A DNA stretch of 52,547 nucleotides from a virus. The translations under genes and the position numbers were made by a program. The stretch lies in IMG/VR virus record IMGVR_UViG_3300021405_000017, positions 1 to 52,547 of that record; one strand, given 5' to 3'. The notes under the pieces are model-generated. The model did no database searches. It saw nothing but the letters and a program-made list of their open reading frames with translations, and was not told the DNA's origin. Of this stretch, positions 4,291-32,822 are shown in pieces; the stretch's first letter is position 1; each line of letters starts with the position of its first letter.

Positions 4291-4317
4291 GCCGCTGGTT
4301 CGCCAGCGGCTTTTTTT
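4291..4317 (+). terminator. strong rho-independent terminator
   Basis: GCCGCTGG-TTCG-CCAGCGGC (8-bp stem, TTCG tetraloop) followed by seven T. It terminates the rightward late transcript where it meets the leftward operon ending at 4316. A second small hairpin (GGACCGT/ACGGTCC, 4269-4285) precedes it and an A-run at 4263-4268 may help it act in both directions. Confidence 0.92.
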
Positions 4318-4903
4318 ATGCGCTCGATCCAGTCTTCTTGACGAACATTTTATTGCCGCAGCGATTGCACGTGACCTCGCTGAATTCGCTCACCGGCAAC
4401 GAGGCGGTCGCCCGTACGTCGGCATCGCTGATAAAGGGCCTCCCGTCCTCGCCTCCGCCTTGCCCTTCACCCGCCGCGGCCGGCTCGCCCGTTACATCCG
4501 GCGCCCGGCGGCGATTGTCGGCAAGCTGAAAATCGAGCGTCCCGAGATCAAAGGCGAAGTCCAGGTTGAGGCTCGCCAGCTCACCCCCTAACAGCTCCTG
4601 ATCCCAGGTCGAGAACTCCTGCACCTTGTTGTCGGCGAGGCGATCGAACTTGACCGTCTCCGGGTCCGCGTCGGTGTAGACGCAGGGGATCTCCGCCATC
4701 TTGAGCCGCACCGCCGCTTTCCAGCGGGTGTGTCCCTTGACGATCACGTTATCGCGGTCGAGCACCAGCGGCACGTTGAAGCCGACCTTAGGGATCAGCT
4801 CGACCAGCTTGCCGACCGTGACGTCATTGTTGCGGACGTTGCGATGGTACGGCTTGATCTTCCGCGTCTCGACCATCACCAATTGGCTGACTGTATCTAC
4901 CAC
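4316..4903 (-). CDS. ParB-like nuclease-domain protein with C-terminal zinc knuckle
   Basis: 195 residues. GTG start at 4903 overlaps the upstream stop; an ATG nine codons in (4876) is the alternative. Residues 10-100 match the ParB/Srx-type fold: KIKPYHRNVRNND, a variable strand, VPLVLDRDNVIVKGHTRWKAA (ParB box-II-like GHTRW), then DRLADNKVQE. The C-terminus has CNRCGNKMF, a single Cys pair. Phage ParB-domain proteins of this kind often sit beside DNA methyltransferases or PAPS-reductase-fold proteins, as here. The exact substrate is unknown. Confidence 0.82.
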   Translation of the reverse strand: MVDTVSQLVMVETRKIKPYHRNVRNNDVTVGKLVELIPKVGFNVPLVLDRDNVIVKGHTRWKAAVRLKMAEIPCVYTDADPETVKFDRLADNKVQEFSTWDQELLGGELASLNLDFAFDLGTLDFQLADNRRRAPDVTGEPAAAGEGQGGGEDGRPFISDADVRATASLPVSEFSEVTCNRCGNKMFVKKTGSSA

Positions 4904-5451
4904 GGGCGCGGCCCTTTACGGATAATGCAGTAGGCGAGCATCGGGATGTGCTCGATCAGCTTGGGAAGCTCGACCTCGACGTCCGGATAGTCGGCCCGGT
5001 CGAAGCCGACCAGGAGCTTGTTGGGGCCGGTCTGAGGGAGGCGGAGATCGCGTGCGACCTGGTGCGGCGACCAGGTGTCGAGGATGATCGCCAGGCCTGG
5101 CCGGAAGAGCGGCATCTCAGCCAGGTCATCCTCGAGGCCGTGGACGATGAAGCCGTCATTGTGCAACTGGATTTGCAGCGCGTAACGGGTGGCGCCGGGA
5201 TCAGTGTGCATCGGATAGCCGCCGCGCGTGCACAGGAAATGCGGGCTGGTCCCTTCCTTCCCGGCCTTGTGCCCGAAGGTCTTGAGGCGCGTCGAGGCGC
5301 GCTGGTCGCCCCAAAAATCGTAGAACCATTCCGGATTGAGCGCGGGCAGGGCGACGACATCGCCGTAGCCCAGCTCCTCGAGCGCGCCGTGCCACAAGAT
5401 CGGATGGCCGGTCTGATCGCCGCTGAGCGCCGCGCCCTTCTTCCAATCCAT
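4897..5451 (-). CDS. putative 2-oxoglutarate/Fe(II) oxygenase-like protein
   Basis: 184 residues, ATG at 5451. A HxD...H pattern is visible: His82-Thr-Asp84 in RGGYPMHTDPG, then 45 residues later His130 in FRPGLAIILDTWSPHQVARD, with Arg134/Arg137 placed as the 2OG carboxylate ligand would be. The phrase 'G-hydrophobic-D-x-x-SPHxV' is typical of the distal strand of the double-stranded beta-helix oxygenases. It lies between two ParB-like genes and upstream of a PAPS-reductase-fold gene, suggesting an oxidative step in nucleic-acid or small-molecule modification. The family call is by motif geometry only. Confidence 0.5.
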   Translation of the reverse strand: MDWKKGAALSGDQTGHPILWHGALEELGYGDVVALPALNPEWFYDFWGDQRASTRLKTFGHKAGKEGTSPHFLCTRGGYPMHTDPGATRYALQIQLHNDGFIVHGLEDDLAEMPLFRPGLAIILDTWSPHQVARDLRLPQTGPNKLLVGFDRADYPDVEVELPKLIEHIPMLAYCIIRKGPRPW

Positions 5452-5456
5452 CGCCG

Positions 5457-6059
5457 CTACTCCTCGCCCTTAGCCGCCTCTCCCTCGTATTTGAGCCGCT
5501 CTTCGATCTGGCGGTTGGTCTCCATCGCCGGCGAATAATCGCCGCCTTGGAAGAACTTCGCGTAGCCGGTGATATGCTTGAGCCGGATCAGCTCCTGCTT
5601 TTCCAGGCCCAGCTCTTCGCACACCCGCTGATCGCTCCAGCCGTTCGCCAGCATCTCGACCACCAGCGCGCTCATGCCGTCGATCGAATGTTTGCCGCGC
5701 GCCCGGTTGTGGCGAATCGTACTCGCCATGCGGTCATTGACGCCCTTGTCGATGACGACGATCGGCAGGAGGCCGTGGTTCTTCTCGTAAATGTCCGGAT
5801 AGCGCTTCATCACGCTGTAGCGGTGGAAGCCGTCTACGATCACGTAGCGATCGCGCTTCGGGTCATAAACCGTGACCACGGGCTGGGTGTAACCATCGTG
5901 CTTGATCGAGACATAAAGAAGCTGCATCTCCATCAGCGCGACGCTGTTCGGATTATAGTCGTTGGCGTAGACCTTTTCGATCGGCGCCCACAGCACGCGG
6001 CTGACCGGATTGTGGGACATGTCGAACGCCGAGGTCGCCAGGACTTGCTCATCGGTCAT
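5457..6059 (-). CDS. ParB-domain protein, IbrB-like
   Basis: 200 residues, ATG at 6059. The ParB-type core is clear: residues 25-50 hold KVYANDYNPNSVA, then GYTQPVVTVYDPKRDRYVIV followed by DGFHRYSVMKR (box-II-like). The C-terminal half is helical with NRARGKHSIDGMSALVVEML and a helix-turn-helix-like GWSDQRVCEELGLEKQELIRLK. It resembles IbrB, the ParB-like partner of IbrA (co-activators of prophage gene expression in E. coli). The IbrA-like gene follows upstream in the operon with only a 70-codon gene between them. Molecular activity is unknown. Confidence 0.78.
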   Translation of the reverse strand: MTDEQVLATSAFDMSHNPVSRVLWAPIEKVYANDYNPNSVALMEMQLLYVSIKHDGYTQPVVTVYDPKRDRYVIVDGFHRYSVMKRYPDIYEKNHGLLPIVVIDKGVNDRMASTIRHNRARGKHSIDGMSALVVEMLANGWSDQRVCEELGLEKQELIRLKHITGYAKFFQGGDYSPAMETNRQIEERLKYEGEAAKGEE

Positions 6060-6261
6060 GATCGAATTCGCCTTCCTTGGCTCGCCTCGCTAGATCGTCA
6101 TGGCCCGCGGCTTCCAGCTCCCTGACGAGCTGGATCATGGGGAAGGTGAACGGCGAAGCGAAATCCGAATAAGCGCCGGCCTCGGCCGCCTTGGCCATAT
6201 CCTCGAGGCCGGCCTCGCGCAGCGCCTCGAGCAGCGCCTGTTTGCCGTCAGACATGGCCAT
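6049..6261 (-). CDS. small acidic/helical protein, 70 aa
   Basis: ATG at 6261, or 6255 two codons in. Both ends overlap neighbours: 11 bp into the IbrB-like gene and 14 bp with the end of the IbrA-like gene, which is typical of this operon. Helical, rich in Ala/Glu (ALLEALREAGLEDMAKAAEAG), with no metal motif. Its position between ibrB-like and ibrA-like genes suggests a linked role. Family not recognised. Confidence 0.6.
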   Translation of the reverse strand: MAMSDGKQALLEALREAGLEDMAKAAEAGAYSDFASPFTFPMIQLVRELEAAGHDDLARRAKEGEFDHDR

Positions 6262-7390
6262 CCGGGGCGTCGGCCGCGAGCCGGCGCGCCTCTTTGCGCT
6301 GCTCGTACAGGCCGCCGGGGACGCGCCGGTCCTCCATCTTGAAGCGGGTCCGGGCGTTCTGGTTCAGCGTCCCGTCCAGGTCGTTGATCAGGATCTCCTT
6401 GACGTGCACCCGATGCCAACGGTCCTGGTCTTGGTTCGCCCATCGGTTGCGGAAGCGCTGGCGGTGCTCGGGCTCGGTCAGGTTCTCCAACAGGTAATCG
6501 CGATAGTCGCGCCAGTTGGCGAAATGCGCCGGCAGCTTATCCGGCATGATCTGGCGCTCAAAGTGGTTGAAGCAATTCACCCCTTCGACCCGCCCGAGAT
6601 AGCGGTTGTACATCTCGGGCTCCGTCTCCTGCAGCTGCTCGATCGAGTGCCAAGCGGTTTCGTGGATCAGCGCTGAAACCCGCATCTCCCGGCCGGTCTT
6701 GCCGAACTTGTAGAAGGCGTCATAAACCCGATTGTAGGGCCAGCCGTGGTTGGCGATCGCCGTCCAGATATCGCGGTCGAGCCAGTCATAGATCGGCCAG
6801 AAGACGCGCGTGTTCGCGAGCGTCTTCCGGCACCAAGTGATCCCTTTGAAGTGGGGTTTCTTCTCGGTCATGGTCAGCCGCCGGACCGAGCTTTCCATCG
6901 CCCGCATGCCGACCAGCACGGCTACGTGTTGCTTGCCAACACAATCGCATTGCGAGGGCAGGCGCTCGATCAGATCATGAAACCGATCGTAGGCCGGGAT
7001 CGGGTTCACCTTGATCGAGATCGGGTCTTGCTCGCGAATCCATTTCTCCCGGTCGGCCTCCGCCCAGCAGCTGAGAAAGTTGTTGCTGAATGACAGGCTG
7101 TTCGACAGCCGGAACGGGATTTGAAACCAGAAAGGCCGGACGTCGGGCTCGCGCATGACCGCGGCCATGTAAGTCCCGGTCGCCTTCCACTCGGCCTCCT
7201 GATCGAGCCAGAACACTTTCACCGGCAGCCGGCCGCGCTCGGCGGCGATGACTCGAGTGAGCTCGAACAGGACAGTCGAATCCTTGCCGCCGCTCATGGA
7301 GACGACGACGTCGTCGCAATTGTCGTAGATGAAGCGGATGCGTTCCTGCGCCGCCTCAAAGACCGATTTCGTCGAGAAGTTTTGTGTCAT
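6248..7390 (-). CDS. PAPS reductase-fold protein, IbrA-like
   Basis: 380 residues, ATG at 7390. The PP-loop SMSGGKDSTVLFELT (SGGKDS at 33-38) marks the PAPS reductase/ATP pyrophosphatase fold. The rest (KVFWLDQEAEWKATGTYM, then PFWFQIPFRLSNSLSF and WCRKTLANTRVFWPIYDW) and the C-terminal region match the IbrA/DUF3440 style of phage protein rather than true CysH. The CysH C-terminal ECGLH motif is absent. With the ParB-like IbrB it forms the known co-occurring pair; here it also sits beside an oxygenase-like gene and a methyltransferase. It binds and probably hydrolyses ATP; the substrate is unknown. Confidence 0.85.
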   Translation of the reverse strand: MTQNFSTKSVFEAAQERIRFIYDNCDDVVVSMSGGKDSTVLFELTRVIAAERGRLPVKVFWLDQEAEWKATGTYMAAVMREPDVRPFWFQIPFRLSNSLSFSNNFLSCWAEADREKWIREQDPISIKVNPIPAYDRFHDLIERLPSQCDCVGKQHVAVLVGMRAMESSVRRLTMTEKKPHFKGITWCRKTLANTRVFWPIYDWLDRDIWTAIANHGWPYNRVYDAFYKFGKTGREMRVSALIHETAWHSIEQLQETEPEMYNRYLGRVEGVNCFNHFERQIMPDKLPAHFANWRDYRDYLLENLTEPEHRQRFRNRWANQDQDRWHRVHVKEILINDLDGTLNQNARTRFKMEDRRVPGGLYEQRKEARRLAADAPDGHV

Positions 7391-7646
7391 CGTCGACCTT
7401 GGCCCGATTGATGATCTGGCACCTGGGCAGGTCGTCGGGCATCGCCCAGTATTTAAAGCCGTCGCCGGCGTACCAGTAGCGAAAGGTCCGCCGGCCCCAC
7501 CGTTCGTCTAGGCCGTTTTGCCTGATGGTGTGAAACAGCGCGACGAAATCCGCCTCGTTCTCCGCCGTCCGCACCGTATAGAAGTGCGGAATCTGCGGCA
7601 TGGTCTTGGCGAACTTAAAGGTCAGTCGGTCGAGGAAGTCCGTCAT
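7356..7646 (-). CDS. small conserved-looking protein, 96 aa
   Basis: ATG at 7646; its 3' end overlaps the IbrA-like gene by 35 bp, implying translational coupling. Aromatic-rich and compact (FLDRLTFKFAKTMPQIPHFY, then RTFRYWYAGDGFKYWAMPDD and INRAKV). The density of Trp/Tyr suggests a small folded domain that could recognise a nucleotide or peptide. I do not recognise a named family; the context links it to the IbrA/IbrB-like pair. Confidence 0.65.
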   Translation of the reverse strand: MTDFLDRLTFKFAKTMPQIPHFYTVRTAENEADFVALFHTIRQNGLDERWGRRTFRYWYAGDGFKYWAMPDDLPRCQIINRAKVDDDTKLLDEIGL

Positions 7647-8173
7647 GGCGCGGTAGGTTTACACAGGTTTGGCGCGGCCTGGCAAAGTAGCCAAATCGCC
7701 GGCGCGCCGTCCCGAAGGTCAGGTAGCACAAAGGGGTTAACGAGTGTCGCCTCGTCGACCGTTGGGGCGGGCGCCGCGGGCGGCGGCGGAGGGATTTCAG
7801 AGTCGTTTCGACTCTGATTATCGGCGACGCGTCGGACGGCCGGCGGGCGAAACCGCGGCAGCCGGCTCACCGGTCGGACATAGGCCTGCGCCAGCGCCGA
7901 TCGCGCGCTCACGCACTCGTCGAGGCGGACGCGCCAGATCTCACCGAAAGCACAGTGGGCGGCCGTCGCCGGCGCCGGGGCGAGCGCCGTCATAAACGCA
8001 CACAGAGGCCCCAGGACAGGCCTCGCCCGTTTTGGGCTATGGCAGCGCCCGGCCAGGCCCCGGCCCGGATCTGCGGCCCGCGCCGCCCCGACAAATTCCA
8101 ATTCGGCCCGGCGGGGGCAATGTTCCCACAGGAAGCCGCAGGGGCAACGCTCAGAGCGGAAGGGCCGGGTCAT
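7643..8173 (-). CDS. hypothetical protein with low-complexity Pro/Ala region; start uncertain
   Basis: The frame runs from an ATG at 8173, which overlaps the methyltransferase stop by 4 bp (ATGA) as elsewhere in this operon, to 7643. An internal ATG at 7993 could give a 116-residue form. The first 40 codons carry a CPCGFLWEHC cysteine cluster. The middle spans a 53-bp element repeated at 33077-33129, so this stretch may be regulatory rather than coding. The C-terminal part has a proline run and a final CQAAPNLCKPTAP. Function unknown. Confidence 0.5.
   Translation of the reverse strand: MTRPFRSERCPCGFLWEHCPRRAELEFVGAARAADPGRGLAGRCHSPKRARPVLGPLCAFMTALAPAPATAAHCAFGEIWRVRLDECVSARSALAQAYVRPVSRLPRFRPPAVRRVADNQSRNDSEIPPPPPAAPAPTVDEATLVNPFVLPDLRDGAPAIWLLCQAAPNLCKPTAP
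8001..8053 (-). repeat. 53-bp repeated element, copy 1
   Basis: 45 of 53 positions match 33077-33129, in the same orientation. On the minus strand it holds CCATAGCC, then ACGGG...CCTGT and GTCCTGGGG. Two alternative short stems can form in both copies. It lies between the methyltransferase gene and the 7993 start candidate, so a leader or regulatory role is possible. Confidence 0.6.
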
Positions 8174-8862
8174 GCCGCGGCGCCCTCGGGAGGCGGCTGA
8201 TAGGGAACGCCGTCGACGCTCCAGGCGCCGCCGAGCTGGTGGATCCTATTAACCAGGACCGCCAGCCGCGCCGGATTCAACTCGACGCCGCAGAACGGCC
8301 GGCCGGCCTGATAGGCGGCGATCCCCACGGCGCCGCGGCCCATGCACAGGTCGGCGATCGTCGCGTAACGCTCGCGCTGACAGATCTGGACGATGATGTC
8401 TTGCTCGTCCAAGCCGCTATAGTCGGCCGGCGACGGCTCAGCCCCGCCGCGCACGACAAAGCAGGGGTTCCGCTTGTAGTAGGTCGCCGGATAGGTGTCG
8501 ACGAAGGCGAACCGCGCGCGCAGCTCGCCGGTGACCTCTTGAACATGTTGCTTGCCGATTTCGACATAGCAGGTCGCCGGCGCAATCCGGTCGATGCGGG
8601 CGAACAGCGCATGGAGGAACTTGTCGAAGCCGTGGGGATTACGCGCCAGGTTGGCCTTCGAGCGAAAGCCGTTTTCGAGCGCCGCGTTGTAGGGCGGATC
8701 GACGAACACGCAATCAGCTTCCGTCATGAAGTCCGGCAACCCGTCATAAAGATCGTTGACCATCACCCGGCCGAGCCCGCACGCCCACAGCTGACCGGGC
8801 TTGAGCGGAAAGCGGTCGACGCTGCCGTCGTATCTCCAGGCCGCCTTGATGCGCTCAGACAT
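8170..8862 (-). CDS. DNA methyltransferase (DPPY, N6-adenine/N4-cytosine type)
   Basis: 230 residues, ATG at 8862. Catalytic motif IV DPPYN is at about 54-58 (CVFVDPPYNAA). The AdoMet motif I comes later (DLCMGRGAVGIAAYQAGR, then GVELNPARLAVLVNRI), i.e. the catalytic-before-cofactor (beta-type) order. It probably methylates phage DNA to protect it from host restriction or to mark replication state. It sits in the same leftward operon as the ParB/IbrA-like genes. No restriction endonuclease is visible next to it, so it is likely an orphan methylase. Confidence 0.85.
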   Translation of the reverse strand: MSERIKAAWRYDGSVDRFPLKPGQLWACGLGRVMVNDLYDGLPDFMTEADCVFVDPPYNAALENGFRSKANLARNPHGFDKFLHALFARIDRIAPATCYVEIGKQHVQEVTGELRARFAFVDTYPATYYKRNPCFVVRGGAEPSPADYSGLDEQDIIVQICQRERYATIADLCMGRGAVGIAAYQAGRPFCGVELNPARLAVLVNRIHQLGGAWSVDGVPYQPPPEGAAA

Positions 8863-9076
8863 TCGCTTCTCGCCCTCTCGCGTCGAAGCCCCACCAGTCT
8901 ACCATGCAGCGGTCGCAAAACCGCGCCCCTGAGCCGTCCTCTTTCCAGATCATCAGCGGCACGTCGCCCTCGCTGATCTGCACGTGGCAATAGGCGCAGA
9001 ACGGCCGCGGCGGGCTGTCCGGCCGGCCCCACGACACCCGGCCCCAATCGAAGTCCGGCCGCGGCTCTAATGTCAT
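8855..9076 (-). CDS. small zinc-ribbon protein, 73 aa
   Basis: ATG at 9076, overlapping the upstream stop by 4 bp; its own end overlaps the methyltransferase start by 8 bp. Two Cys pairs, CAYC at about 32-35 and CDRC at about 57-60, would bind one zinc. The C-terminus is tryptophan-rich (CMVDWWGFDARG). One of many small Cys-pair proteins in this phage; function unknown. Confidence 0.65.
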   Translation of the reverse strand: MTLEPRPDFDWGRVSWGRPDSPPRPFCAYCHVQISEGDVPLMIWKEDGSGARFCDRCMVDWWGFDARGREANV

Positions 9077-9399
9077 TCCTCGGTCCCCGGCGTCAGGCCG
9101 CGAACGATCTCGAAAATCTTTCGGATTGCGGCGCCGTCCTGGGCGGAGCATGTCCTGCGGCCGAGCCGAGCCCGGTGGCGGGCGACTGTTTCGATCACGT
9201 CCGCAAGCGCCGCGTCGACATCGCGCTGGCGCTGCGCCTCCGCCTCCGCCTTCTGGCGGGCCACGTCCTCGAGCCGGCGCGCGTCCGGCTCGTGAATCGC
9301 GAGCGCGGTCTGCACCGCCGCCGTTCCGATCGCGTCGGCGAGCGAGTCGATCTCCGCCAGGTCAGCGGCGGACATCGCGTGTCTGAGTTGGTCGTTCAT
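9073..9399 (-). CDS. hypothetical helical protein, 108 aa
   Basis: ATG at 9399 is chosen because an AGGAGG ribosome site lies 10 bp upstream; the longer reading to 9525 runs through a terminator hairpin. It is almost wholly helical with a likely coiled coil (RRLEDVARQKAEAEAQRQRD). It is the first gene after the 9428-9479 hairpin, so its expression may depend on readthrough or its own promoter. Family not recognised. Confidence 0.65.
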   Translation of the reverse strand: MNDQLRHAMSAADLAEIDSLADAIGTAAVQTALAIHEPDARRLEDVARQKAEAEAQRQRDVDAALADVIETVARHRARLGRRTCSAQDGAAIRKIFEIVRGLTPGTEE

Positions 9400-9427
9400 T
9401 GGGTTCGCCTCCTCCTGGCCATCGTTT

Positions 9428-9479
9428 AAAAAAACCGCCGCCGGACTGGGCTGGGGGGCAGTTATCCGTCCGGCGGCGG
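9428..9479 (-). terminator. rho-independent terminator for leftward transcription
   Basis: On the minus strand GCC repeats form a perfect 12-bp stem (plus-strand arms 9435-9446 and 9468-9479, CCGCCGCCGGAC and its complement) with a 21-nt loop, followed by seven T. It splits the leftward operon between the 9506-9796 gene and the 9399 start. Confidence 0.85.
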
Positions 9480-9505
9480 CTTCCCCGAGCACGGGGGGAA
9501 GCTCG

Positions 9506-11772: not shown

Positions 11773-11928
11773 TTTTCTAAACCGTTTTCTAAACCGCCCC
11801 GACGGTTTAAAATAAACCGCCCTAAGTTATTGAAAAGATTGGCTGGGGGACCTGGATTCGAACCAAGATTGACGGAGTCAGAGGCCGTTGTTCTTCCTTG
11901 ATTTTATTGGGAAAGGTTTTTTAAACCG
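11773..11928. other. phage attachment site attP with arm-type repeats
   Basis: The core at 11840-11892 is the complement of the 3' part of a tRNA-Gln (see separate entry). Left arm: perfect tandem 12-mers TTTTCTAAACCG at 11773-11784 and 11785-11796, then the inverted repeat CGGTTTAAAATAAACCG at 11803-11819. Right arm: GGTTTTTTAAACCG at 11915-11928, inside the 3' end of the integrase gene. The shared AAACCG unit is a plausible integrase arm-binding site. Phage genes lie on both sides, so this is attP, not attL or attR. Confidence 0.78.
11840..11892 (-). tRNA. 3' fragment of tRNA-Gln(CTG), att core (not a functional tRNA)
   Basis: Read on the minus strand it gives the anticodon arm with CTCTGAC (anticodon CTG), the T-arm GGTTCGAATCC, and the acceptor end GGTCCCCCAGCCA. 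The D-arm and 5' acceptor strand are missing, so it is the fragment a phage carries to restore the host tRNA on integration. The anticodon stem has a mismatch on its 5' side, marking where identity with the host gene may begin. Confidence 0.82.
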
Positions 11929-13070
11929 CGATTTTTGGCCCTAAAGAGATCAATGGGTTGCGCTCGGTTTAGAATACGATTTTCGCCCGCCTCGTAGACT
12001 TCAAATTTAGCCATCGCTGCGCGCGCGACGCTCAGGTCAAGGTTCACATAACCAGCGAGCGAAGAGCGCTTTGTGCCGCTCTCCAAACCATGCCCGGTAA
12101 TGCTGGCGATCTCGATCGTGGTGCAGCCGGCGCGTCCCATGCGTGACGCGGCGGTCCCTCGTAGATCATGGAACGTGACGCCGCCTTTCCGGCTGCTTGG
12201 CACGCCCGCCTTGATACAGGTCTTACGCCACATGACCCGAAAGCCATCCGGCGTCCACGGCTCGCCGCTCTGGTTGACCAGCATGAGCTCATCTTTGCGG
12301 GGTGTCGCGTCGAGGATCGCCCTCAGCGGCGCCGCCACCGGGACGACGATATCGACGTCGGTCTTGCCTTGAGTCAGCGCGATCACGTCGCCGTCGTATG
12401 CGGTCCATGGCAGCCGGAGGAGATCGCCTTGTCGCTGCAAGGTCCAGAATGCGAGGGCCATCGCCAGCGACAATTCCGGCGAGGCGGCTGCCCTGAACGC
12501 CGCCATTTGGCCCTCGGTCCAGACCTTGTGTTTCCGACTCGTGCTGTAGAGTTTCTCGACGCCCGAGCGAGCGCAAGGATTGAACTCGATCTCGCCCCGC
12601 GTCGTCGCGAAATTCAAAACGATATTCAGGACGACCCAGGCATAGTCGGCCTGCCGGTCTGATTTCTTAGCGAGCTGATCGCGCCAGCGGAGGAAAATCC
12701 CTCGCGCCCGATTCTTGACCCCCAGGGCGATGATCGGCATCTGGCGATGTTCGGTGGGAACGGCGGCCAGGAGCTTGCGATAGTCGCGCTGTGTCCGCTC
12801 TTTCCGCTTCCGAAATTCGGGGCTGTCGAGATAAAGGTCAATCAGCCATTCGAGCGTCTTGCCGGCGGTCGCGCGCGGCTCGTTGGAGTTGGCGATCGGA
12901 CCCGCCGCCTTGATTGCCAGCGCCTCCGCCAGCGCGCGCCTGAACTCAGGCGAGCCTTCCGGCCCAGGTAGCTTCGGGCCGCCCTGCCACGCGTAGAGGT
13001 AGAGAACGGTCGTTCCATCGGCGAGTTTTTTGGGGACGCGGTGAATCCCCCCTTTACTTGGACGTCCCAT
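11904..13070 (-). CDS. int: tyrosine-family phage integrase
   Basis: 388 residues, ATG at 13070. The catalytic domain occupies about 183-350. Active-site residues by pattern: Arg213 (LQRQGDLLRL), His301 and Arg304 (TFHDLRGTAASRM), His327 (TGHGLE) and Tyr341 (SLAGYVNL). The N-terminal 70 residues are an arm-binding type domain and residues 70-170 a core-binding SAM-like domain. The att core and arm repeats lie just beyond the stop codon, so the protein should recombine phage attP with host tRNA-Gln. A 70-codon gene overlaps its start by 17 bp and probably is co-transcribed. Confidence 0.93.
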   Translation of the reverse strand: MGRPSKGGIHRVPKKLADGTTVLYLYAWQGGPKLPGPEGSPEFRRALAEALAIKAAGPIANSNEPRATAGKTLEWLIDLYLDSPEFRKRKERTQRDYRKLLAAVPTEHRQMPIIALGVKNRARGIFLRWRDQLAKKSDRQADYAWVVLNIVLNFATTRGEIEFNPCARSGVEKLYSTSRKHKVWTEGQMAAFRAAASPELSLAMALAFWTLQRQGDLLRLPWTAYDGDVIALTQGKTDVDIVVPVAAPLRAILDATPRKDELMLVNQSGEPWTPDGFRVMWRKTCIKAGVPSSRKGGVTFHDLRGTAASRMGRAGCTTIEIASITGHGLESGTKRSSLAGYVNLDLSVARAAMAKFEVYEAGENRILNRAQPIDLFRAKNRGLKNLSQ

Positions 13071-13460: not shown

Positions 13461-13977
13461 GCCGCGCCTCCTTCCGTCTCAGCCGGCCCAGCCCCGCCTC
13501 GCCTTGCCAGATCAAGCCTAGTCACACCGCGCCTGGTCCAGCCTCGCCGGCCCCGCAAGCCGCGCCATGCCAGGCCACGCCTTGCCTCGCCAGGCCTCAC
13601 CATTCCGGCCGCGCCGAGCCCGGCCTTGCCTAGCCACGCCACGCCGCGCCAGACCCCGCCGCGCCGGCCTTGCCTTGCCTCGCCGGGCCTAGTCGCGCCC
13701 GGCCGCACCGAGCCTGGCCGAGCCCGGCCGTGCCGCGCCCCGCCGAGCCCTGCCTGCCTCGCCCCACCTCGCCAGGTCCAGCCTTGCCAGGCCTTGCCCC
13801 ACGCCGCACCTGCCTTGCCCTGCCTCGCCAAGTCGCGCCCGGCCTCGCCGGACCCAGCCCAGCCTGGCCACGCCTGCCTTGCCACGCCCAGCCTCACCGG
13901 GGCCGGCCGCGCCTTGTCTAGCCTAGCCATGCCTGGTCCGGCCGCGCCGTGCCGCGCCTGCCTTGCCTCGCCTCGTC
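13458..13977. repeat. degenerate pentanucleotide array A1 (CCNNG on +, GGCNN on -)
   Basis: About 100 units of 5 bp. On the plus strand each is CC-N-N-G (e.g. CCTTG CCTTG CCTCG CCGGG CCTAG); on the minus strand GG recurs every 5 nt. It fills the gap between the stop codon of the 13978-14280 gene and the start of the 13460 ORF with no other spacer. Open frames across it are a by-product: only a TA dinucleotide in the variable position can make a stop. Confidence 0.9.
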
Positions 13978-14280
13978 TCATACGGGCGAATCGAGCCGTT
14001 TGAACTCGCCTCGCCGTAGCTCGATGGCCGGGACACTCCGGATCTCGCTGCGCCGCGCCTTGATGACGAATTCGCGCCATTCTCGCCGCTGCTCCCGCTC
14101 TAAGCCGCGTACTAGGTCAGCCTGATATTTCTCCGACAACGCGCGCTTCACCCAAGCGTCGAACGGCAGCCGAGCCGCAGCTGCCGCCTCCTCGAACGCC
14201 TGCATGATCGGCGAGGCAAGGCGAATGTGGAGCGTCTTGCCGCCCACCTCGTCGTCATTGTCATTGATGGGTTCGTTCAT
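13978..14280 (-). CDS. RHH-like / small regulatory protein between arrays, 100 aa
   Basis: ATG at 14280 with GGAGAGGG upstream. The longer reading to 14604 runs into the repeat array and is rejected. Residues 15-50 (KTLHIRLASPIMQAFEEAAA followed by ARLPFDAWVKRALSEKYQ) look like a ribbon-helix-helix or antitoxin-type DNA-binding fold, with a beta strand and two helices. The C-terminal half is basic (EREQRREWREFVIKARRSEI). It is the only gene lying between two pentanucleotide arrays, and its stop codon abuts array A1. A role in binding the arrays is an attractive guess only. Confidence 0.7.
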   Translation of the reverse strand: MNEPINDNDDEVGGKTLHIRLASPIMQAFEEAAAAARLPFDAWVKRALSEKYQADLVRGLEREQRREWREFVIKARRSEIRSVPAIELRRGEFKRLDSPV

Positions 14281-14301
14281 GACCCTCTCCTTTTCACTTT
14301 T

Positions 14302-15775
14302 GCCCGCCTTGCCTGCCTTGCCTTGCCGAGCCTTGTCGGACCCAGCCGGGACACGCCAAGCCTCGCCATGCAACGTCCCGCCGCGCCTGCCTTGCCATGT
14401 CGGGCCTAGCCGGGTCGGATCTTGCCGAACCCCGCCAAGCCTCGCCTCGCCCGGCCCGGTCAAGCCACGCCTGCCTTTGCCTTGCCATGCCTGGCCTTGC
14501 CCAGCCGCACCGTGCCGAACCCGGTCGGACCCGGCCAAGCCTGCCATGCCAGACCTCGCCTCGCCGCGCCTTGCCAAGCCTCGCCAAACCCGGCCATGTC
14601 GCATCCGGCCGCGCCTGCCTCGCCCCGCCTTGCCTCGCCGCGCCCTGCCCAGCCCGGCCAGGCCGAATCGTACCGGGTCTAGTCATGCCCCGCCGGCCTC
14701 GCCTTGCCCCGCCAGGCCCAGTCTCGGCTCGTCCTGCCTCGCCTAGTCCCGCCCAGTCGCGCCCGACCATGTCAGGCCGTGCCCGGTCCCGTCTTGCCGT
14801 GCCGCGCCTTGCCAGGCCTGCCTCGCCATGCCTCGCCAAGTCGCGCCTTGCCTCACCGCGTCTGGCCCGGCCTTGCCGCGCCAGGTCTCGCCGTGTCGCG
14901 CCTGCCTTGCCTTGCCTTGCCCGGCCCCGCCTCGCCGGGTCCCGCCATGCCTGCCTCGCCTCACCCCATCGTGCCGGGCCAAGGCGTGTCCCGACATGCC
15001 TCGGCATGCCAGGCCCGGCCCGGCCGGACCTCGCCTGCCTAGCCTCGCCCGGTCGCGCCGAGTCGAGCCTAGCCTCGCCGCGCCCCGCCGTACCGTGCCC
15101 GGCCGGGTCATGCCTGCCTCGCCCCGCCGCGCCAGCGCCATGCCAAGCCTTGCCGAGTCGCGCCTGGTCGTGCCTGGCCCGGCCAGGCCCAGCCTGGCCA
15201 TGCCTGCGTTGCCTTGCCTCATCAGGTCAGGCCATGCCTCGCCTCGCCCAGCCTCGCCTCGCCTCGCCTGTCTGGCCATGCTTCGCCTCGTCACATCATG
15301 CCGCGCCGGATCAAGCCTCGCCCGGTCCCGCCGTGCCGTGCCTGACCCCGCCTCATCAGGTCTGGCCATGCCTGCCTCGCCTCGCTGCGCCGGGGCTCGC
15401 CCGGCCAAGCCGGGTCGAGTCCCGCCTGGCCCCGCCTAGCCTGCCTTGCCGTGTCAGGCCTCGTCACGCCTCGCCGTGTCCGGCCCAGCCTAGTCTGGCC
15501 ATGCCTGCCGTGTCCGGCCCAAACCAAGCCTCGCCTTGCCGCGCCTTGCCTCGCCACGCCTGCCTTGCCCGGCCAGGCCAAGCCTTGTCACGTCGCACTG
15601 CATCCCGCCTCGCCTGCCTTGCCTGGCCTCGCCAGGTCTCGCCGCCCTTGTCCTGCCCAGCCTCGCCTGCCTTGTCAGGCCACGCCTAGCCGGACCGGGC
15701 CGGGCCTAGCCTTGCCTCGCCGCATCTGGCCCGGCTCTGTCATGCCAAGCCTGGCCTTGCCTGCCTTGCCGTGTC
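14302..15775. repeat. degenerate pentanucleotide array A2, about 1.47 kb
   Basis: The longest array, roughly 290 units of CCNNG (plus) / GGCNN (minus). It is interrupted about every 50-90 bp by a 4-bp unit in the phrase GCCTGCC(T/A)TGCC or GCCTGCCTCGCC, e.g. near 14387, 14614, 14816, 14900, 14949, 15111, 15370, 15560 and 15610. Many intervals look like 5n+4. It begins exactly at the stop codon of the 15774-16316 gene and ends at the ribosome site of the 14280 gene. Confidence 0.92.
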
Positions 15776-16316
15776 AGGCGGCGGTTCGTGAGCCGCCGCC
15801 CTTGCCTTTGCCGCCTTTGCCGCCGCCGGCCTTGCCCGCACCTTTGCTCGCAGCCTTGGCGGCGCGGGCTCGTTCGGCGATGGTTTCGAGGTTGAGCAAC
15901 ATGGTGTCCAAGTCTGGACCGACGCCCAGGACGAGGGCGACCTTTCGCGCCCGCTCTATAGCGGCGGCGATGCGGTCAACCTCGTCCTCGAGGACTCGCA
16001 GCGCCCGCGCGCGCTGACCTTTGAACGAGGTCAATTCGCAAGAGGTCTGCGTTTTCGGCGCTCGATCGGGATCGACAATGTAGTAGGGCACTACGATGGT
16101 TTCGGTCTCCGTGATGACCTCAAACCGGACGTAACGGATCAGGGTGCGGGCCTGCTCGATCCAATGCTGTTGCGCCGCCTTTTTTACGTCCCATTCGAAG
16201 TCTTCATGGATTGGAGAGCCGGGAGGCCGAGCCGCTTCGACCACCTTCTCAGGCTCAAGACGCCCGCTGGAGTCTTCCAGCGAGCGAATAAAGGCGGCCT
16301 TGGCCGCCGACATCAT
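15774..16316 (-). CDS. hypothetical phage protein, 180 aa
   Basis: ATG at 16316 overlaps the upstream stop (ATGA). The N-terminal half holds a pattern I associate with uncharacterised alphaproteobacterial phage proteins: RLEPEKVVEAARPPGSPIHE, then FEWDVKKAAQQHWIEQARTL. The middle is a long helix (RALRVLEDEVDRIAAAIERA). The C-terminal 30 residues are Lys/Gly-rich (GKAGGGKGGKGKGGGS), a flexible basic tail. The stop codon is formed at the boundary of array A2. It belongs to the recombination-module operon; a nucleic-acid-associated role is plausible. Confidence 0.75.
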   Translation of the reverse strand: MMSAAKAAFIRSLEDSSGRLEPEKVVEAARPPGSPIHEDFEWDVKKAAQQHWIEQARTLIRYVRFEVITETETIVVPYYIVDPDRAPKTQTSCELTSFKGQRARALRVLEDEVDRIAAAIERARKVALVLGVGPDLDTMLLNLETIAERARAAKAASKGAGKAGGGKGGKGKGGGSRTAA

Positions 16317-17197
16317 TGCGACAGCCCCACCTCGTCGCCGCCGCCATTGCTCTTAGGCGGGCGCTTGCCGTTTGCGGCTTTCGGCGTCTTGCCCTTTGAC
16401 GCCTTGCCGCCCTCGCGCTGAGAGCTAGCCTCGCGCCGGATGATCTCGCTCTCGTACCACACCCACAATTCTTCGCTGTCGATATCGCTCGCCTCCGGGT
16501 TATCGTAGGCCGCCTGTTGCACCTTACGGCCGCCGTTCTTGACGATATCGAGCCAGCGCGGGTCACGCGCATCGACGACCTCCCAGCCGCCGTTGTTGAA
16601 GGTGCCCTTCTCTGTTCGCCCGTCGCCGATGCCGGTCACATCGCCGGCGTTCGACATCAAGTTGACGATCGCCCGCTCGGTCGTCAGCGTCTTGATGAAT
16701 TGGACGGTGAGTTTCACCGCCCATGTTTTGAACATCGCGCGGGTTCGAATGTCGGGCACGCGCTTCATGCCCTCAAGGCGGACCCAATCCATGTAGAGGT
16801 AGGGCTTGCCATAGACGTGGACCGTCTGGTCGACCACCTGCACCAGACAGCCGATCTCAGTCTTCGTTGCACCTGGCGTGCGGAGCGCCGCGGAACCGAG
16901 CGCCTTTTTGAAAGCGCCGGTAGGGAAGTGAAAAAGCGTAGGCGCGCTATCGTCGCGGCACCGATACATTGTGTCGCGGAATTCAGCGAGCGGGTCATGT
17001 TTCAAAATGACCTGCTTCTCGGCGTTGTTTTTAGCGCGCGACGGAAGCAACAGCTGCTGCTTCGCTTTCGCGCTCGGCCGATTCATCACCAGGGGCGCCG
17101 TGCCCAGAAGATGGAAGACAACGTAGCCTCGCTCGAAGCGCTTAAGCTCCGAGACCATCTCGGTGGTGTCGCGTGTTTTACTGGGTTTGGTAGCCAT
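16313..17197 (-). CDS. hypothetical protein of the recombination module, 294 aa
   Basis: ATG at 17197 with a GGAGGAG ribosome site upstream. Residues 20-260 look like a mixed alpha/beta domain (YVVFHLLGTAPLVMNRPSAK, HDPLAEFRDTMYR, FPTGAFKKALGSAAL, and GDGRTEKGTFNNGGWEVV). The C-terminus is lysine-rich and low complexity. I recall similar proteins next to phage annealing proteins and exonucleases but cannot name the family. Position suggests help in ssDNA handling or recombination; this is inference. Confidence 0.72.
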   Translation of the reverse strand: MATKPSKTRDTTEMVSELKRFERGYVVFHLLGTAPLVMNRPSAKAKQQLLLPSRAKNNAEKQVILKHDPLAEFRDTMYRCRDDSAPTLFHFPTGAFKKALGSAALRTPGATKTEIGCLVQVVDQTVHVYGKPYLYMDWVRLEGMKRVPDIRTRAMFKTWAVKLTVQFIKTLTTERAIVNLMSNAGDVTGIGDGRTEKGTFNNGGWEVVDARDPRWLDIVKNGGRKVQQAAYDNPEASDIDSEELWVWYESEIIRREASSQREGGKASKGKTPKAANGKRPPKSNGGGDEVGLSQ

Positions 17198-17252
17198 TCT
17201 CGTCTATGCTCCTCCTTTCGGAAAACGGCCTATCCGCTTTCCGTCGTCGCTT

Positions 17253-17279
17253 GGCCCGGGCGTCGTGAGCGCCCGGGCC
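17253..17279. other. perfect 10-bp inverted repeat
   Basis: GGCCCGGGCG-TCGTGAG-CGCCCGGGCC. It lies between array A3 and the ribosome site of the 17197 gene. There is no clear T-run on the minus strand, so it may be a processing or pausing hairpin or an operator. Confidence 0.55.
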
Positions 17280-17297
17280 TTGCGTTTCGTTCGCGCT

Positions 17298-17937
17298 CAG
17301 CCTGCCGGCCGAGCCTTGCTTTGCCTCGCCATGCCGGGCCGTGCCACGCCGGGCCTGACCAGACCCAGCCCTGCCGAGCTGCGCCACGCCAAGTCGCGCC
17401 TGCCTCGCCCAGCCGGGCCGTGTCGGGCCTAGCCGCACCTCGCCCGGCCTCGCCAGGTCCGGCCGCGCCAAGCCTTGCCTGCGTCGCCGCGCCGTATCGC
17501 GCCGGACCGGGCCACGCCCCGCCAAGCCTCGGCCAGACAAGCCTCGCCAGGCCGCGCCTGCCTTGCCTCGCCATGCTGAGCCCAACCCCGCCAAGCCCCG
17601 CCGCGCCAGGTTCAGCCAGGTCCGGCCTCGCCTGCCTCGCCTTGCTCCGCCCCACCTCGCCGTGCCCCGTCACGCGTTGCCCGGTCGCGCCCAGCCGTGC
17701 CCCGTCTCGTCTAGCCATGCCTGCCTTGCCCCGCCGAGCCGGGTCTGGCCTTGCCCCGCCAAACCGCGCCACGCCAAGCCTGGCCTGACCCCGCCTGCGT
17801 CGCCTTGCCTCGCCTCGCCCGGCCAAGCCGCGCCCGGCCTCGCCATGTCGGGCTCAGCCCGGCCAGGCCTCGCCGGTCATGCCGCCCCTTATCGAGCCCA
17901 ACCCCGCCATGTCTGGCCAAACCGCGCCTGCCTTGCC
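17298..17937. repeat. degenerate pentanucleotide array A3, about 640 bp
   Basis: About 128 CCNNG (plus) / GGCNN (minus) units, same orientation as A1 and A2. It starts directly at the stop codon of the 17938-18966 gene and ends about 20 bp from the strong hairpin at 17253. The GCCTGCC(T)TGCC slip phrase recurs (e.g. near 17400 and 17560). Confidence 0.92.
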
Positions 17938-25800: not shown

Positions 25801-27132
25801 ATGACCGAACTGACTCGCTACCAGGTTACCGAGCGCGCGCTGGCGTCCGCCAAGACGATCAATGAAGTGAGCGAAGTGTGCAGCTATTACGACGGCATCG
25901 CTAAAGCAGCGCGCGGCCTTGAAGACCGGGAGGCCGAGATCGAGGCGGCCGAGCTTTCCATCCGGGCAAAACGCAAGCTCGGTCAATTGATCATCGCCGC
26001 GGGCAAGGCGGGCGCGCTGGCGAAGGGAGGCGGCGATCAGCGGCCAAACCACCGGGTTAAAAATAACCCAGTGACGCCGACCCTTGCCAGCGCTCACGTC
26101 GACAAGAACCTCGCCAACAGCGCGCGTAAGCTCGGCAAGCTTGAGCCTGAGGAATTCGATCGCGGGTTTGAGGCATGGCGCAAATCGATCAACGGCGGCG
26201 GCGAGCGCATTTCAGCCAAGCTGCCAGAGGTTCCGCGGGAAGCGCGCGGACCATCTAAGCGACGCGCCGATAACATCTCGCTTAAGACCTGGGAGCAGAT
26301 GAGCGCGGAAGAGCGGCGCGAGTGCCTCGACCCGGCGAACTATCCCAGCGATGCTCCCATGAATAAGCAAGACGGCCCTGGCATCGAGTGGGCGCAGAAA
26401 AGCTGGAACCCGATTGTCGGCTGCAAGCATGACTGCCCCTATTGCTACGCGCGCGATATCGCGACCCGCTATCCCGACGCGTTCCCGCACGGCTTTGAGC
26501 CTGCGTTCCGCCCTTACATGCTCAACGCCCCGCGCAACACGCCGCTCCCGAAGGAAGCGATGTTCGACGCGCGGTTCAGCCATGTCTTCGCGGGGTCGAT
26601 GACGGATTGGTTTGGAAGGTGGGTGCCGCCCGAGTGGATCGAGGCGGTGCTCGCGACCATGCGCGACAATCAGATTTGGCAATTTCTATGCTTGACGAAA
26701 TTCCCGAAGCGCATGGCTGAATTTGATCTGCCGCCGAACATGTGGGCGGGCACCACGGTCGATCTCCAGGCGCGCGTCGCCAACGCAGAAGCGGCCTTTG
26801 CAAAGCTCGCGGCGAAAAACCCAACCGGCGTTCGCTGGCTTTCGATCGAGCCCCTACTCGAACCGCTCAAGTTCAAACAGCTTGATCTATTCAAGTGGGT
26901 GGTCATCGGCGGCGCTTCCAAATCCAGCAAGACGCCAGCGTTCCAGCCGCCGTTTCCGTGGATCATTGATATCTACGCCCAAGCCAAGGCTGCGGGCTGT
27001 CAAGTCTACATGAAGACGAATCTCCTCGGCAATCGGGTGCTCGAATTGCCCTTCGACGCGCCGATCAAGAAAGACCCGACAGAAGCGGAGAATGTCTTTC
27101 ATTATCTGGGGAGGGCCAAAGATGCCGAGTAG
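25801..27132 (+). CDS. DUF5131 (phage Gp37/Gp68) three-Cys protein with N-terminal helical domain
   Basis: 443 residues, ATG at 25801. Residues 200-430 are the Gp37/Gp68-type domain: IEWAQKSWNPIVGCKHDCPY with cysteines 208, 212 and 215 (CX3CX2C, the radical-SAM spacing), FAGSMTDWFGRWVPPEWIEA, and WLSIEPLLEPLKF. Residues 1-130 form a separate helical domain (EIEAAELSIRAKRKLGQLII) of the kind found at the N-terminus of phage replication or ParB-adjacent proteins. The fusion of the two is notable. Likely an Fe-S, SAM-using enzyme working with the TcmP-like partner; substrate unknown. Confidence 0.85.
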   Translation: MTELTRYQVTERALASAKTINEVSEVCSYYDGIAKAARGLEDREAEIEAAELSIRAKRKLGQLIIAAGKAGALAKGGGDQRPNHRVKNNPVTPTLASAHVDKNLANSARKLGKLEPEEFDRGFEAWRKSINGGGERISAKLPEVPREARGPSKRRADNISLKTWEQMSAEERRECLDPANYPSDAPMNKQDGPGIEWAQKSWNPIVGCKHDCPYCYARDIATRYPDAFPHGFEPAFRPYMLNAPRNTPLPKEAMFDARFSHVFAGSMTDWFGRWVPPEWIEAVLATMRDNQIWQFLCLTKFPKRMAEFDLPPNMWAGTTVDLQARVANAEAAFAKLAAKNPTGVRWLSIEPLLEPLKFKQLDLFKWVVIGGASKSSKTPAFQPPFPWIIDIYAQAKAAGCQVYMKTNLLGNRVLELPFDAPIKKDPTEAENVFHYLGRAKDAE

Positions 27133-31573: not shown

Positions 31574-31941
31574 TTTGCGAGACCTGCGAGGGCGAGGGCT
31601 ACGTGCGCGGCGTCGACACGGCAAACCCGGGCGCGCTCGTCATGCTGCCCTGTCTCGAGTGCAACGGCTCGGGCGTGGCGAGCTGTTGCGACGTGGCCGG
31701 CTCGAGCGCGCCGCCGTCCTGGGCCGAGCAGCAGCTCGCCGAGGCGAAGGCTTGGCGTGAGGAGATGGCCGCGCTTTATCACGTCCCGGTGGACGCCCTG
31801 TTTGCCGAGCCGCACAGCTCCTCGAGGCGCTCGTTTGTCTGCCCGCGCTGCGGCGCCGAGAGCTTCAACACGCACGACATCATCTATCGCTACTGCGGCC
31901 GTTGTCACGCCTTCGTGGACGATCCGCCGGGGCCGAGCTGA
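31570..31941 (+). CDS. DnaJ-type zinc-finger protein, 123 aa
   Basis: ATG at 31570, 4-bp overlap. N-terminal CETCEGEGYV and CLECNGSGV are CxxCxGxG half-repeats of the DnaJ central zinc finger; a second pair near the end (CPRCG, CGRC) makes another zinc site. A helix (EQQLAEAKAWREEMAALYHV) links them. Possibly binds nucleic acid or unfolded protein. 3' end overlaps the opposite-strand gene ending at 31905. Confidence 0.7.
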   Translation: MICETCEGEGYVRGVDTANPGALVMLPCLECNGSGVASCCDVAGSSAPPSWAEQQLAEAKAWREEMAALYHVPVDALFAEPHSSSRRSFVCPRCGAESFNTHDIIYRYCGRCHAFVDDPPGPS

Positions 31942-32132
31942 TCGATGAAGGCGAGCAATTCGTCGGCGCCCAATTCGCGCCAGGCTGGCTCATTCCAGGC
32001 GTGCAGGGTGAAGGCGGCCTTGGCGTAATCGAGGTCAGCCGCGCCGGCGACGCAGAGCGGCCACAGGATCTTGAGGTCGATCGCCCTCTGCCGAGCTCGC
32101 CACCAGGTCCGGATCAGCGCCCAAGCCGCCAT
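31905..32132 (-). CDS. hypothetical protein, 75 aa
   Basis: ATG at 32132 with a GGAGGG site about 5 bp upstream on the minus strand. WALIRTWWRARQRAIDLKIL followed by WPLCVAGAADLDYAKAAF and HAWNEPAWRELG is a pattern I recall in several rhizobial prophages. Runs convergent with, and overlaps by 37 bp, the zinc-finger gene. Not named. Confidence 0.62.
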   Translation of the reverse strand: MAAWALIRTWWRARQRAIDLKILWPLCVAGAADLDYAKAAFTLHAWNEPAWRELGADELLAFIDQLGPGGSSTKA

Positions 32133-32252
32133 CGGTCCCTCCTGCGCCAGATTTATGCAATTTATGCCGCGCCTAGGAGGTTGGCTCTAGCGCAACTTCC
32201 CGGCGTAAGGTATCTCTATCCCGTCGTGGATTTTCTCCAACGGGGCTCAATC

Positions 32253-32822
32253 ATGAAAAGGCTATTGATCGCAACGGCGCTGCTCGCCGCGGTTGGCTCG
32301 ACGCCAACAAGGGCGGCGAATCAAATCACGGTCGAGGACATCGGCTCGGTCTTCAACCAGTCTCTCGCGCTACCGGCTCAGGACACGCCCGGCAGCGGCA
32401 TCGGCTTCGAGCAGTTCTTCGAATTCACGCTGCCTACCAGGGAGACGGTCACGGTGTCGATGAGCGACAGCGCGATCGGCCTTCAACGGATCACCGGCGG
32501 CCTGCTTTCGCTCAACGATTTCACCTCGAGCGCGCCGACCTCGCCATTCCAGCCAATCGGGGCGCTGATCGAATCGTCGGCGGTCGTGAATGTGACCGGC
32601 GGTCAGGAGGCGACGGTTAATCCGGACATCTTGAACGCGGGCGCGTATTTCGCTGAGCTGTCCGGCGTAAGCGGCCTCTCGCCGATCCACATCGCCATCG
32701 ACGGCACGATTACGGCGGTGTCGACGCCTGAGCCCTCGACCTGGGCGATGCTGGCGCTCGGCTTCGGGTTCCTTGGATTTACCGCGTTCCGGCGTAGGAC
32801 GCGTCGTAGCCTCGCGATCTGA
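32253..32822 (+). CDS. PEP-CTERM sorted extracellular protein (moron)
   Basis: 189 residues, ATG at 32253. Signal peptide at 1-21 (RLLIATALLAAVGSTPTRAA). The C-terminus has the full PEP-CTERM sorting signal: PEP at 159-161 (TPEPSTWAMLALGFGFLG), a membrane helix, then RRRTRR. Proteins of this class are processed by host exosortase (EpsH/XrtA-type) and placed in the outer layers or matrix. The middle is a beta-rich domain of unknown function. It stands alone between phage operons and is most likely a lysogenic-conversion gene. Needs a host with exosortase. Confidence 0.85.
   Translation: MKRLLIATALLAAVGSTPTRAANQITVEDIGSVFNQSLALPAQDTPGSGIGFEQFFEFTLPTRETVTVSMSDSAIGLQRITGGLLSLNDFTSSAPTSPFQPIGALIESSAVVNVTGGQEATVNPDILNAGAYFAELSGVSGLSPIHIAIDGTITAVSTPEPSTWAMLALGFGFLGFTAFRRRTRRSLAI

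Follow-up and report, generated by a model that had tools for sequence, protein, structure and literature searches.

Which reaction might the adjoining IbrA and IbrB genes of phages serve, and what does an oxygenase-like gene do beside them in the soil-phage record IMGVR_UViG_3300021405_000017? The window, i.e., the whole analyzed stretch of this record, is 52,547 bases long, and every gene of the island that raises the question lies on its − strand (Table 1). An initial annotation, made from the sequence alone, had described a putative modification island at 4316–8862 with ParB-like, oxygenase-like, IbrB, IbrA, and methylase genes, and the named open reading frames (ORFs) exist as placed. Our results point, with somewhat more confidence than doubt, to one version of a phage cassette of modular build that is centred on IbrA and IbrB and modifies phage DNA. 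The finding is larger than the initial annotation stated: a conserved phage cassette in which IbrA is accompanied by a new, probable metal oxygenase.

Close relatives of the oxygenase-like protein (57–100% identity) were found in six viral contigs and one more was recovered via its motif. A seven-member hidden Markov model (HMM) of the family matched 9 of 80 IbrB-centred viral loci (eight divergent members and one contig already known); these loci are the best 80 of 587 confirmed, a sample that leans towards the window’s type. An IbrB scan of genome contigs gave another 80 loci, one of which (L119) was matched by the same HMM. This locus, on a contig of a gammaproteobacterial metagenome-assembled genome, was the sole one of the 80 with both oxygenase and glycosyltransferase genes and is possibly a phage contig binned into the genome. 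We then scanned 2.9 million viral contigs with a 13-sequence alignment, using the protein pattern alone and leaving gene context unused, and 67 of the 84 matched stretches encode an oxygenase relative. IbrA is on the same record in 66 of these 67 loci and in the examined flank of 65, being within 1.5 kb in 64 and on the same strand in 64, while IbrB is in the examined flank of 61; the co-occurrence in other phages that the initial annotation had named as a check of its reading is thus found. Two loci are exceptions as to the flank: the record of one has its IbrA at a distance of about 15 kb, and that of the other is a fragment of 15 kb. When the scan was later repeated with the most divergent members, it yielded five new records, all with IbrA, which brought the total to 71 of 72 records. 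The oxygenase gene precedes IbrA on the same strand in 53 loci; the gap is no more than 20 nucleotides (nt) in 48, and the median overlap is 4 nt. At 70% identity the loci fall into 38 clusters (37 with IbrA, 28 with the glycosyltransferase) and at 50% identity into eight clusters, all with IbrA. As a baseline, IbrA was detected in 215 of 50,697 cultured-phage records by tblastn, a less sensitive method.

IbrA and IbrB occur together in 61 of 67 oxygenase loci and 75 of 80 IbrB-centred loci, and 71 of the 80 viral ones have the pair without the oxygenase. In the cultured phages, tblastn searches with three different oxygenase members gave no match, and the close oxygenase alignment matched 25 stretches of genome contigs, none of which was confirmed. 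In the openly licensed literature, as far as its text was accessible, no paper was found that names an oxygenase-glycosyltransferase-IbrA-IbrB set. The oxygenase together with IbrA/IbrB, usually with the glycosyltransferase, is an apparently undescribed, widespread phage gene set.

Single-sequence scans of family libraries returned no family for the window’s oxygenase-like protein or for its 96-amino-acid (aa) protein. In a 57-sequence alignment of the oxygenase family, residues H71, H82, D84, D125, P129, H130, and D151 are invariant. The HxD…H motif pointed out by the initial annotation in 4897–5451 (HTD…H in the window) is thus kept as a metal triad (H82, D84, H130) in 57 of 57 members and, being invariant across the alignment, is conserved down to 21% identity with the window protein. 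Weak Pfam matches among the 57 members were to Cupin_2 in ten and Asp_Arg_Hydrox in seven (best E 0.0044). An Argos match (five members, best E 0.00098) was dismissed as implausible; PDB sequence matches of the six- and 57-member profiles to amylases (E 0.05), and a profile match to a chain of anthrax lethal factor (E 0.18, two short stretches), were at chance level. TET/JBP base hydroxylases were absent from the Pfam matches of the 57 members at E ≤ 1; a remote relation to them, to AlkB-like proteins, or to other families outside the structure-search listing may exist. One phage contig (L226) carries two divergent oxygenase-like copies, at 4731–5282 and 8725–9504.

An AlphaFold2 (AF2) prediction from the six close sequences reached a predicted local distance difference test score (pLDDT) of 37.5 and was discarded. 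With the 57 sequences used instead, the model had a pLDDT of 93.9, a predicted template modelling score (pTM) of 0.89, and an all-beta core in which HxD closes one strand and H130 opens another. A Foldseek search of the PDB placed the aspartyl/asparaginyl hydroxylase AspH first (E 1.5e-3, probability 1.00, TM 0.39), followed by FIH, a nucleoside-antibiotic hydroxylase, cysteine dioxygenase, and cupins; none of these PDB matches reached E ≤ 0.001. Against viral models, eight matches were at E ≤ 0.001, three of them named as Asp/Asn/Pro hydroxylase-domain proteins. In VIA-align, proline 3-hydroxylase came top (Z 7.6, root-mean-square deviation 4.0 over 117 residues), and PHD2, a nucleoside hydroxylase, and cupins were among the further matches. 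These modest matches, and the weak Pfam matches in the same direction, converge on the hydroxylase/cupin class of the double-stranded beta-helix (DSBH) fold. The cupin/DSBH fold that the initial annotation expected is favoured by a confident all-beta model with hydroxylases and cupins as its best matches, although none of the matches is decisive by itself and none in the PDB is at E ≤ 0.001. The position at which a basic residue for 2-oxoglutarate (2OG) would be usual, K145, is K in 11 of the 57 members, N in 31, and Y in 14; R89 is R in 56 and could fill the role of binding the 2OG C5 carboxylate. As the usual basic residue is not evident, we grade the product of 4897–5451 as a probable metal oxygenase, with 2OG as a possible co-substrate.

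The usual partner of the oxygenase, a glycosyltransferase, could not be seen from the window alone. The commonest gene order is ParB, 96-aa domain, glycosyltransferase, oxygenase, IbrA, IbrB, terminase small subunit, and terminase large subunit; the small-subunit and portal cluster names were assigned from position and sequence. Counted by HMM, the glycosyltransferase is present in 57 of 67 oxygenase loci (53 by cluster) vs. 18 of 71 IbrB loci without the oxygenase (the same either way), a contrast with a Fisher p of 6e-13 that is uncorrected for relatedness and spans two samples. Within the IbrB sample alone it is found in 7 of 9 oxygenase loci vs. 18 of 71 (p 0.003). All 35 scanned members match the phrog_854 glucosyltransferase family, and aspartate 57 of the acidic motif is invariant. 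Across the 38 loci with all five genes, oxygenase distances correlated with those of the glycosyltransferase at 0.80, of IbrA at 0.72, and of the terminase at 0.67; the glycosyltransferase thus co-varies most closely with the oxygenase among its partners. Such a frequent partner fits hydroxylation followed by glycosylation. The arrangement varies: L022 has its glycosyltransferase flanked by IbrA and IbrB and its oxygenase on the opposite strand, and in L007 the oxygenase adjoins the glycosyltransferase apart from IbrA. A terminase of one cluster was found in 42 of the 67 oxygenase loci, and at least two ParB-family genes in 49.

Loci without the oxygenase have other enzymes. GNAT proteins occur in 16 of 71 oxygenase-less IbrB loci vs. 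none of 67 oxygenase loci, S-adenosylmethionine (AdoMet) decarboxylases in 9 of 71 vs. none, and a second glycosyltransferase-like type with no Pfam match in 7 of 71 vs. none. DPPY/W methylases were present in 20 of 71 vs. 3 of 67; the window does have the DPPY gene that the initial annotation counted as part of the island, but DPPY methylases do not belong to the core set that accompanies the oxygenase. The pattern suggests tailoring enzymes that can be exchanged around a shared core of IbrA and IbrB. The 96-aa domain (sm96), by HMM, is present in 38 of the 67 loci with the oxygenase, in 45 of the 71 IbrB loci that lack it, and in 4 of 80 genome loci; single-linkage clustering had given 34 of 67 with a cluster chained via methyltransferase fusions, and the HMM recount was used. 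Elsewhere (L104, L103, L075, L071) Pfam matches reveal sm96 fused to a class I SAM methyltransferase, AdoMet decarboxylase, or SET domain (SET in L075 and L071), which suggests that sm96 may be an adaptor for AdoMet enzymes.

The IbrB and IbrA assignments of the initial annotation agree with the family matches (Table 1); IbrA also matches DUF3440 (1.1e-6), and both this and PF01507 exceed the Pfam cut-offs. We collected 201 distinct IbrA proteins, and the PP-loop SGGKDS is present in 195. The catalytic motif of CysH, the 3′-phosphoadenosine-5′-phosphosulfate (PAPS) reductase, is ECGxH, and it was found in none of the 201. Cysteine reaches 44% in its richest column and CxxC occurs in five of the proteins. 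A single IbrA sequence had no match in the PDB; a 20-member profile matched CysD best (1zun, E 2e-10), with FAD synthase and PAPS reductase as the next relatives. IbrA also weakly matches DndC models (PADLOC E 7e-10, NCBIfam 5.7e-6). The missing CysH motif and the lack of conserved cysteines argue against PAPS reduction and DndC-type sulfur transfer and leave adenylation, so IbrA is likely to act by ATP-dependent adenylation. As all 201 IbrA are without the CysH motif, it may be IbrA that stands behind some of the auxiliary metabolic genes described as cysH in phages from viromes. The IbrB profile matched ParB/Noc proteins and, more weakly, the free serine kinase SerK (E 1e-3) and SbnI in the PDB; these matches make a nucleotide-driven role for IbrB plausible.

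In the mechanism that we propose, IbrA would activate a substrate, most likely by adenylation, and IbrB, a ParB/sulfiredoxin-fold NTPase, would bind or prime the target together with the second ParB, so that a group is placed on the phage’s own DNA. The oxygenase-like protein, with its predicted DSBH fold and metal site, may then hydroxylate either the base or the group installed on it; the new hydroxyl would, in the majority of relatives, be capped by the glycosyltransferase. The methylase and the 96-aa protein would be additional tailoring parts, and the presumed purpose is protection from host restriction. Gene content, conservation under purifying selection, linkage, exchange of partners, the confident all-beta model, and the invariant triad are observed, and we infer the oxygenase chemistry, the order of steps, the DNA target, and the protective purpose; the neighbouring terminase, the ParB-like proteins, and the methylases of DNA type are why DNA is preferred as the target. 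The hypermodification pathway suggested by the initial annotation is partly supported, since the fold prediction and the co-occurrence survive, while the methylase proved to be no core partner. A more specific version appears possible, although we hold it tentatively: IbrA/IbrB would install a core group around packaging, tailoring sets would be swapped in a combinatorial manner (oxygenase and glycosyltransferase, or GNAT, AdoMet decarboxylase, other glycosyltransferases, and methylases), and sm96 would be their shared AdoMet-enzyme adaptor.

Several observations weigh against a DNA-modifying cassette. The loci are related to each other, so that the counts overstate the number of independent events. 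The fold matches are individually weak (best PDB E 1.5e-3 with TM 0.39, and a best Z, 7.6, that is middling), and the position that opens the last core strand, where a basic 2OG residue is expected, has lysine in just 11 of 57 members. The oxygenase, IbrA, IbrB, and ParB are present in the window and the majority of its closest relatives, but no glycosyltransferase of the phrog_854-type family was detected in 8 of the 10 records searched, the window included, a weak absence as the records may be incomplete; G006 and G007 have it. The window’s island is a few kb from the integrase and far from the terminase (43776–45512), and the sole experimental IbrAB phenotype that we met is activation of the eib genes in E. 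coli, as cited in PMC7649339. A protein target would also suit the fusions to SET domains and the likeness to protein hydroxylases. Indeed, with SET fusions present and a protein hydroxylase as the nearest fold, the strongest rival is that the cassette modifies a protein, e.g., of packaging or of the host, by AspH-like hydroxylation, a glycosyl cap, and SET/SAM methylation, with IbrA/IbrB supplying an activated donor. The best single structure match of the oxygenase model, AspH, and the weak Asp_Arg_Hydrox matches in 7 of 57 members speak for it, as do the sm96-SET fusions of L075 and L071. On the other hand, prolyl hydroxylases, nucleoside hydroxylases, and cupins match the oxygenase model about equally, and the islands contain DPPY-type DNA methylases and several ParB-like proteins; we consider a protein target unlikely.

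Phage papers, in their accessible text, call IbrA/IbrB prophage co-activators or PAPS reductase (PMC4490671, PMC5874904, PMC10434257), and PMC7649339, citing Sandt 2002, describes E. coli IbrB as an activator of enhanced Eib expression. If the pair were gene-expression co-activators here as well, the other genes would be unrelated cargo, which is improbable given the tight linkage to the oxygenase and glycosyltransferase (57 of 67 loci), the intact PP-loop in 195 of 201 IbrA, and the other enzymes swapped in where the oxygenase is absent. A phosphorothioate-like sulfur modification of DNA, with IbrA as an analogue of DndC/SspD, would explain the weak DndC model matches, and DndB is also placed in the ParB superfamily in the accessible text of PMC10853773. 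The same source has DndC relying on cluster cysteines and a cysteine dyad, whereas no cysteine column of IbrA exceeds 44% and CxxC is found in 5 of 201, so that we regard this route as distinctly improbable. An auxiliary role in sulfur metabolism, IbrA being a PAPS reductase (cysH) that aids sulfate assimilation by the host, has the frequent label in phage records on its side, as well as virome papers on cysH, which are common in the accessible literature; with ECGxH in 0 of 201, CysD rather than CysH as the best solved profile relative, and no sulfur-assimilation gene recognised beside IbrA, it is very improbable. Nor do we expect a superinfection-exclusion or anti-phage defence island of a temperate phage, a reading that the integrase (PF00589) a few kb away would favour and that seems highly unlikely: none of the island’s genes was recognised as a nuclease- or toxin-like effector, its notable PADLOC matches were methylase- and DndC-like only, and in most relatives the island lies before the terminase and not in a lysogeny region.

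Were the DNA-modifying cassette confirmed, the long-unexplained IbrA/IbrB pair would gain a chemical role, and it would become possible to find modified DNA of a new class, along with a new class of evasion of host defences. The oxygenase family, with no match in the libraries used, would then mark the hydroxylated, probably glycosylated version of the pathway. Hundreds of cultured phages carry IbrA/IbrB-type genes, for which PAPS reductase and “co-activator” are frequent labels; with the pair as a modification core, the common “sulfur metabolism” label of phages would be wrong.

Table 1. Genes of the IbrA/IbrB island in the window.
Feature	Position	Strand	Basis
ParB-like protein, 195 aa, one C-terminal CxxC	4316..4903	−	phrog_620 E 1e-36
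Oxygenase-like protein, 184 aa, HTD(82-84)...H130, predicted DSBH/cupin fold	4897..5451	−	family alignment and model
IbrB-type ParB/Srx-fold protein, 200 aa, DGFHR motif	5457..6059	−	phrog_2159 E 1.6e-70
Small ORF, 70 aa	6049..6261	−	elsewhere only in near-identical record L002; no family match
IbrA, PP-loop ATPase, PAPS-reductase-like superfamily, 380 aa, SGGKDS	6248..7390	−	PF01507 E 1.2e-13, phrog_2302 3e-81
Trp/Tyr-rich protein, 96 aa (“sm96” domain)	7356..7646	−	family HMM
ORF, 176 aa, absent from the initial annotation	7643..8173	−	weak L003 homologue in the same place (phmmer 1e-6); no family match
DPPY-type DNA methylase-like protein, 230 aa	8170..8862	−	PF01555 E 1.1e-4 (below cut-off), phrog_498 2.8e-11
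ORF with cysteines, 98 aa, overlaps methylase start	8855..9151	−	homologue near island in L003; no family over cut-off

Neighbouring genes of the island overlap by 4–35 nt, as the initial annotation had it for all of them, except that a 5-nt gap separates the oxygenase from IbrB; the IbrA/IbrB pair (5457–7390) has one 70-aa ORF in between. Compared with the relative L003, the ratio of nonsynonymous to synonymous substitutions (dN/dS) was about 0.23 for the oxygenase, 0.17 for IbrB, 0.16 for IbrA, 0.33 for the CxxC-bearing ParB, 0.31 for the methylase, and 0.14 for the 96-aa gene; the six tested genes are thus under purifying selection. The protein of 4316–4903, presented earlier as a ParB with a zinc knuckle, is ParB-like but has two cysteines in a single CxxC near its C-terminus, which makes no full knuckle. 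Homologues of it adjoin the oxygenase-like gene or IbrB in L003, L004, L006, L010, L014, L015, and L022, and a second copy adjoins the first in L014 and L022. DPPY is present in the methylase sequence, and its PF01555 match scores 22.7 bits vs. a cut-off of 26.7. Neither the methylase nor the 96-aa protein of the window had a relative in the cultured phages by tblastn. The 176-aa ORF between these two genes resembles an inserted secreted-protein gene and is probably a passenger.

Outside the island, the window encodes the terminase, a helicase/primase, a RecE-like exonuclease, an M15 peptidase, and the integrase (11904–13070). Long stretches of a degenerate five-base repeat, GCCNN, run through 13559–17844 on the + strand throughout; runs of at least eight units number 20 there vs. 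none in each of 20 local shuffles, and none were seen in the 11 other loci checked. The ORF at 31902–32822 has a terminal PEP-CTERM sorting signal (PF07589, E 2.5e-7) and an internal signal-peptide-like start, and its product is possibly a secreted protein encoded by the phage. A DUF5131 protein (E 4.9e-35) is encoded at 25801–27132.

Among known systems, the cultured Microbacterium phage Hendrix (host M. foliorum NRRL B-24224; gp154–gp158, gp1–gp5) has a comparable arrangement: gp154 is a glycosyltransferase of the same family, gp155 is annotated as a glucosyltransferase, gp156 joins sm96 to a methyltransferase, gp157 is an N-acyltransferase, and gp158 is IbrA, followed by IbrB, two ParB genes, and the terminase. 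No oxygenase of the window’s family was found in Hendrix. Neither its GenBank record nor the accessible text of its genome paper (PMC7302621) assigns a modification function to these genes, and that text does not discuss the island. Mycobacteriophage Phlyer, which grows on M. smegmatis mc2 155, carries IbrA, IbrB, and one ParB. Fusions of ParB and methyltransferase in phrog_498 are matched in part by the ParB of 4316–4903 (9.2e-28) and the methylase (2.8e-11), yet in the window these are two separate genes, one at each end of the island. Phosphorothioation loci of the Dnd, Ssp, and BREX type 4 kinds combine, as the island does, a PP-loop enzyme with a ParB-superfamily protein; IbrA, however, is without conserved cysteines, and among the island’s genes none was noticed that would be a Dnd partner. 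Two surveys, on Dnd and BREX systems, treat such PP-loop and ParB enzymes without naming, in their accessible text, the oxygenase-IbrA-IbrB set (PMC10853773, PMC12839542). AspH and the prolyl hydroxylases have a fold like the predicted one, and 7 of 57 members have a weak Pfam match to Asp_Arg_Hydrox, but the oxygenase family is smaller, shares about 13% identity with them, and does not conserve the basic residue at K145. The island of E. coli ECOR-9 and the known phage pairs have the same two families adjoining (PF01507 with DUF3440, and ParB-like), to which the window adds the oxygenase-like gene, a second ParB, the 96-aa partner, and the methylase, and its relatives the glycosyltransferase and a terminase neighbour. 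In T4 glucosyl-hydroxymethylcytosine and in J-base, DNA bases are hydroxylated and then glycosylated. The route proposed for the island would have this logic in common, hydroxyl first and sugar cap after, but, unlike those systems, is linked to a PP-loop ATPase and ParB-fold proteins.

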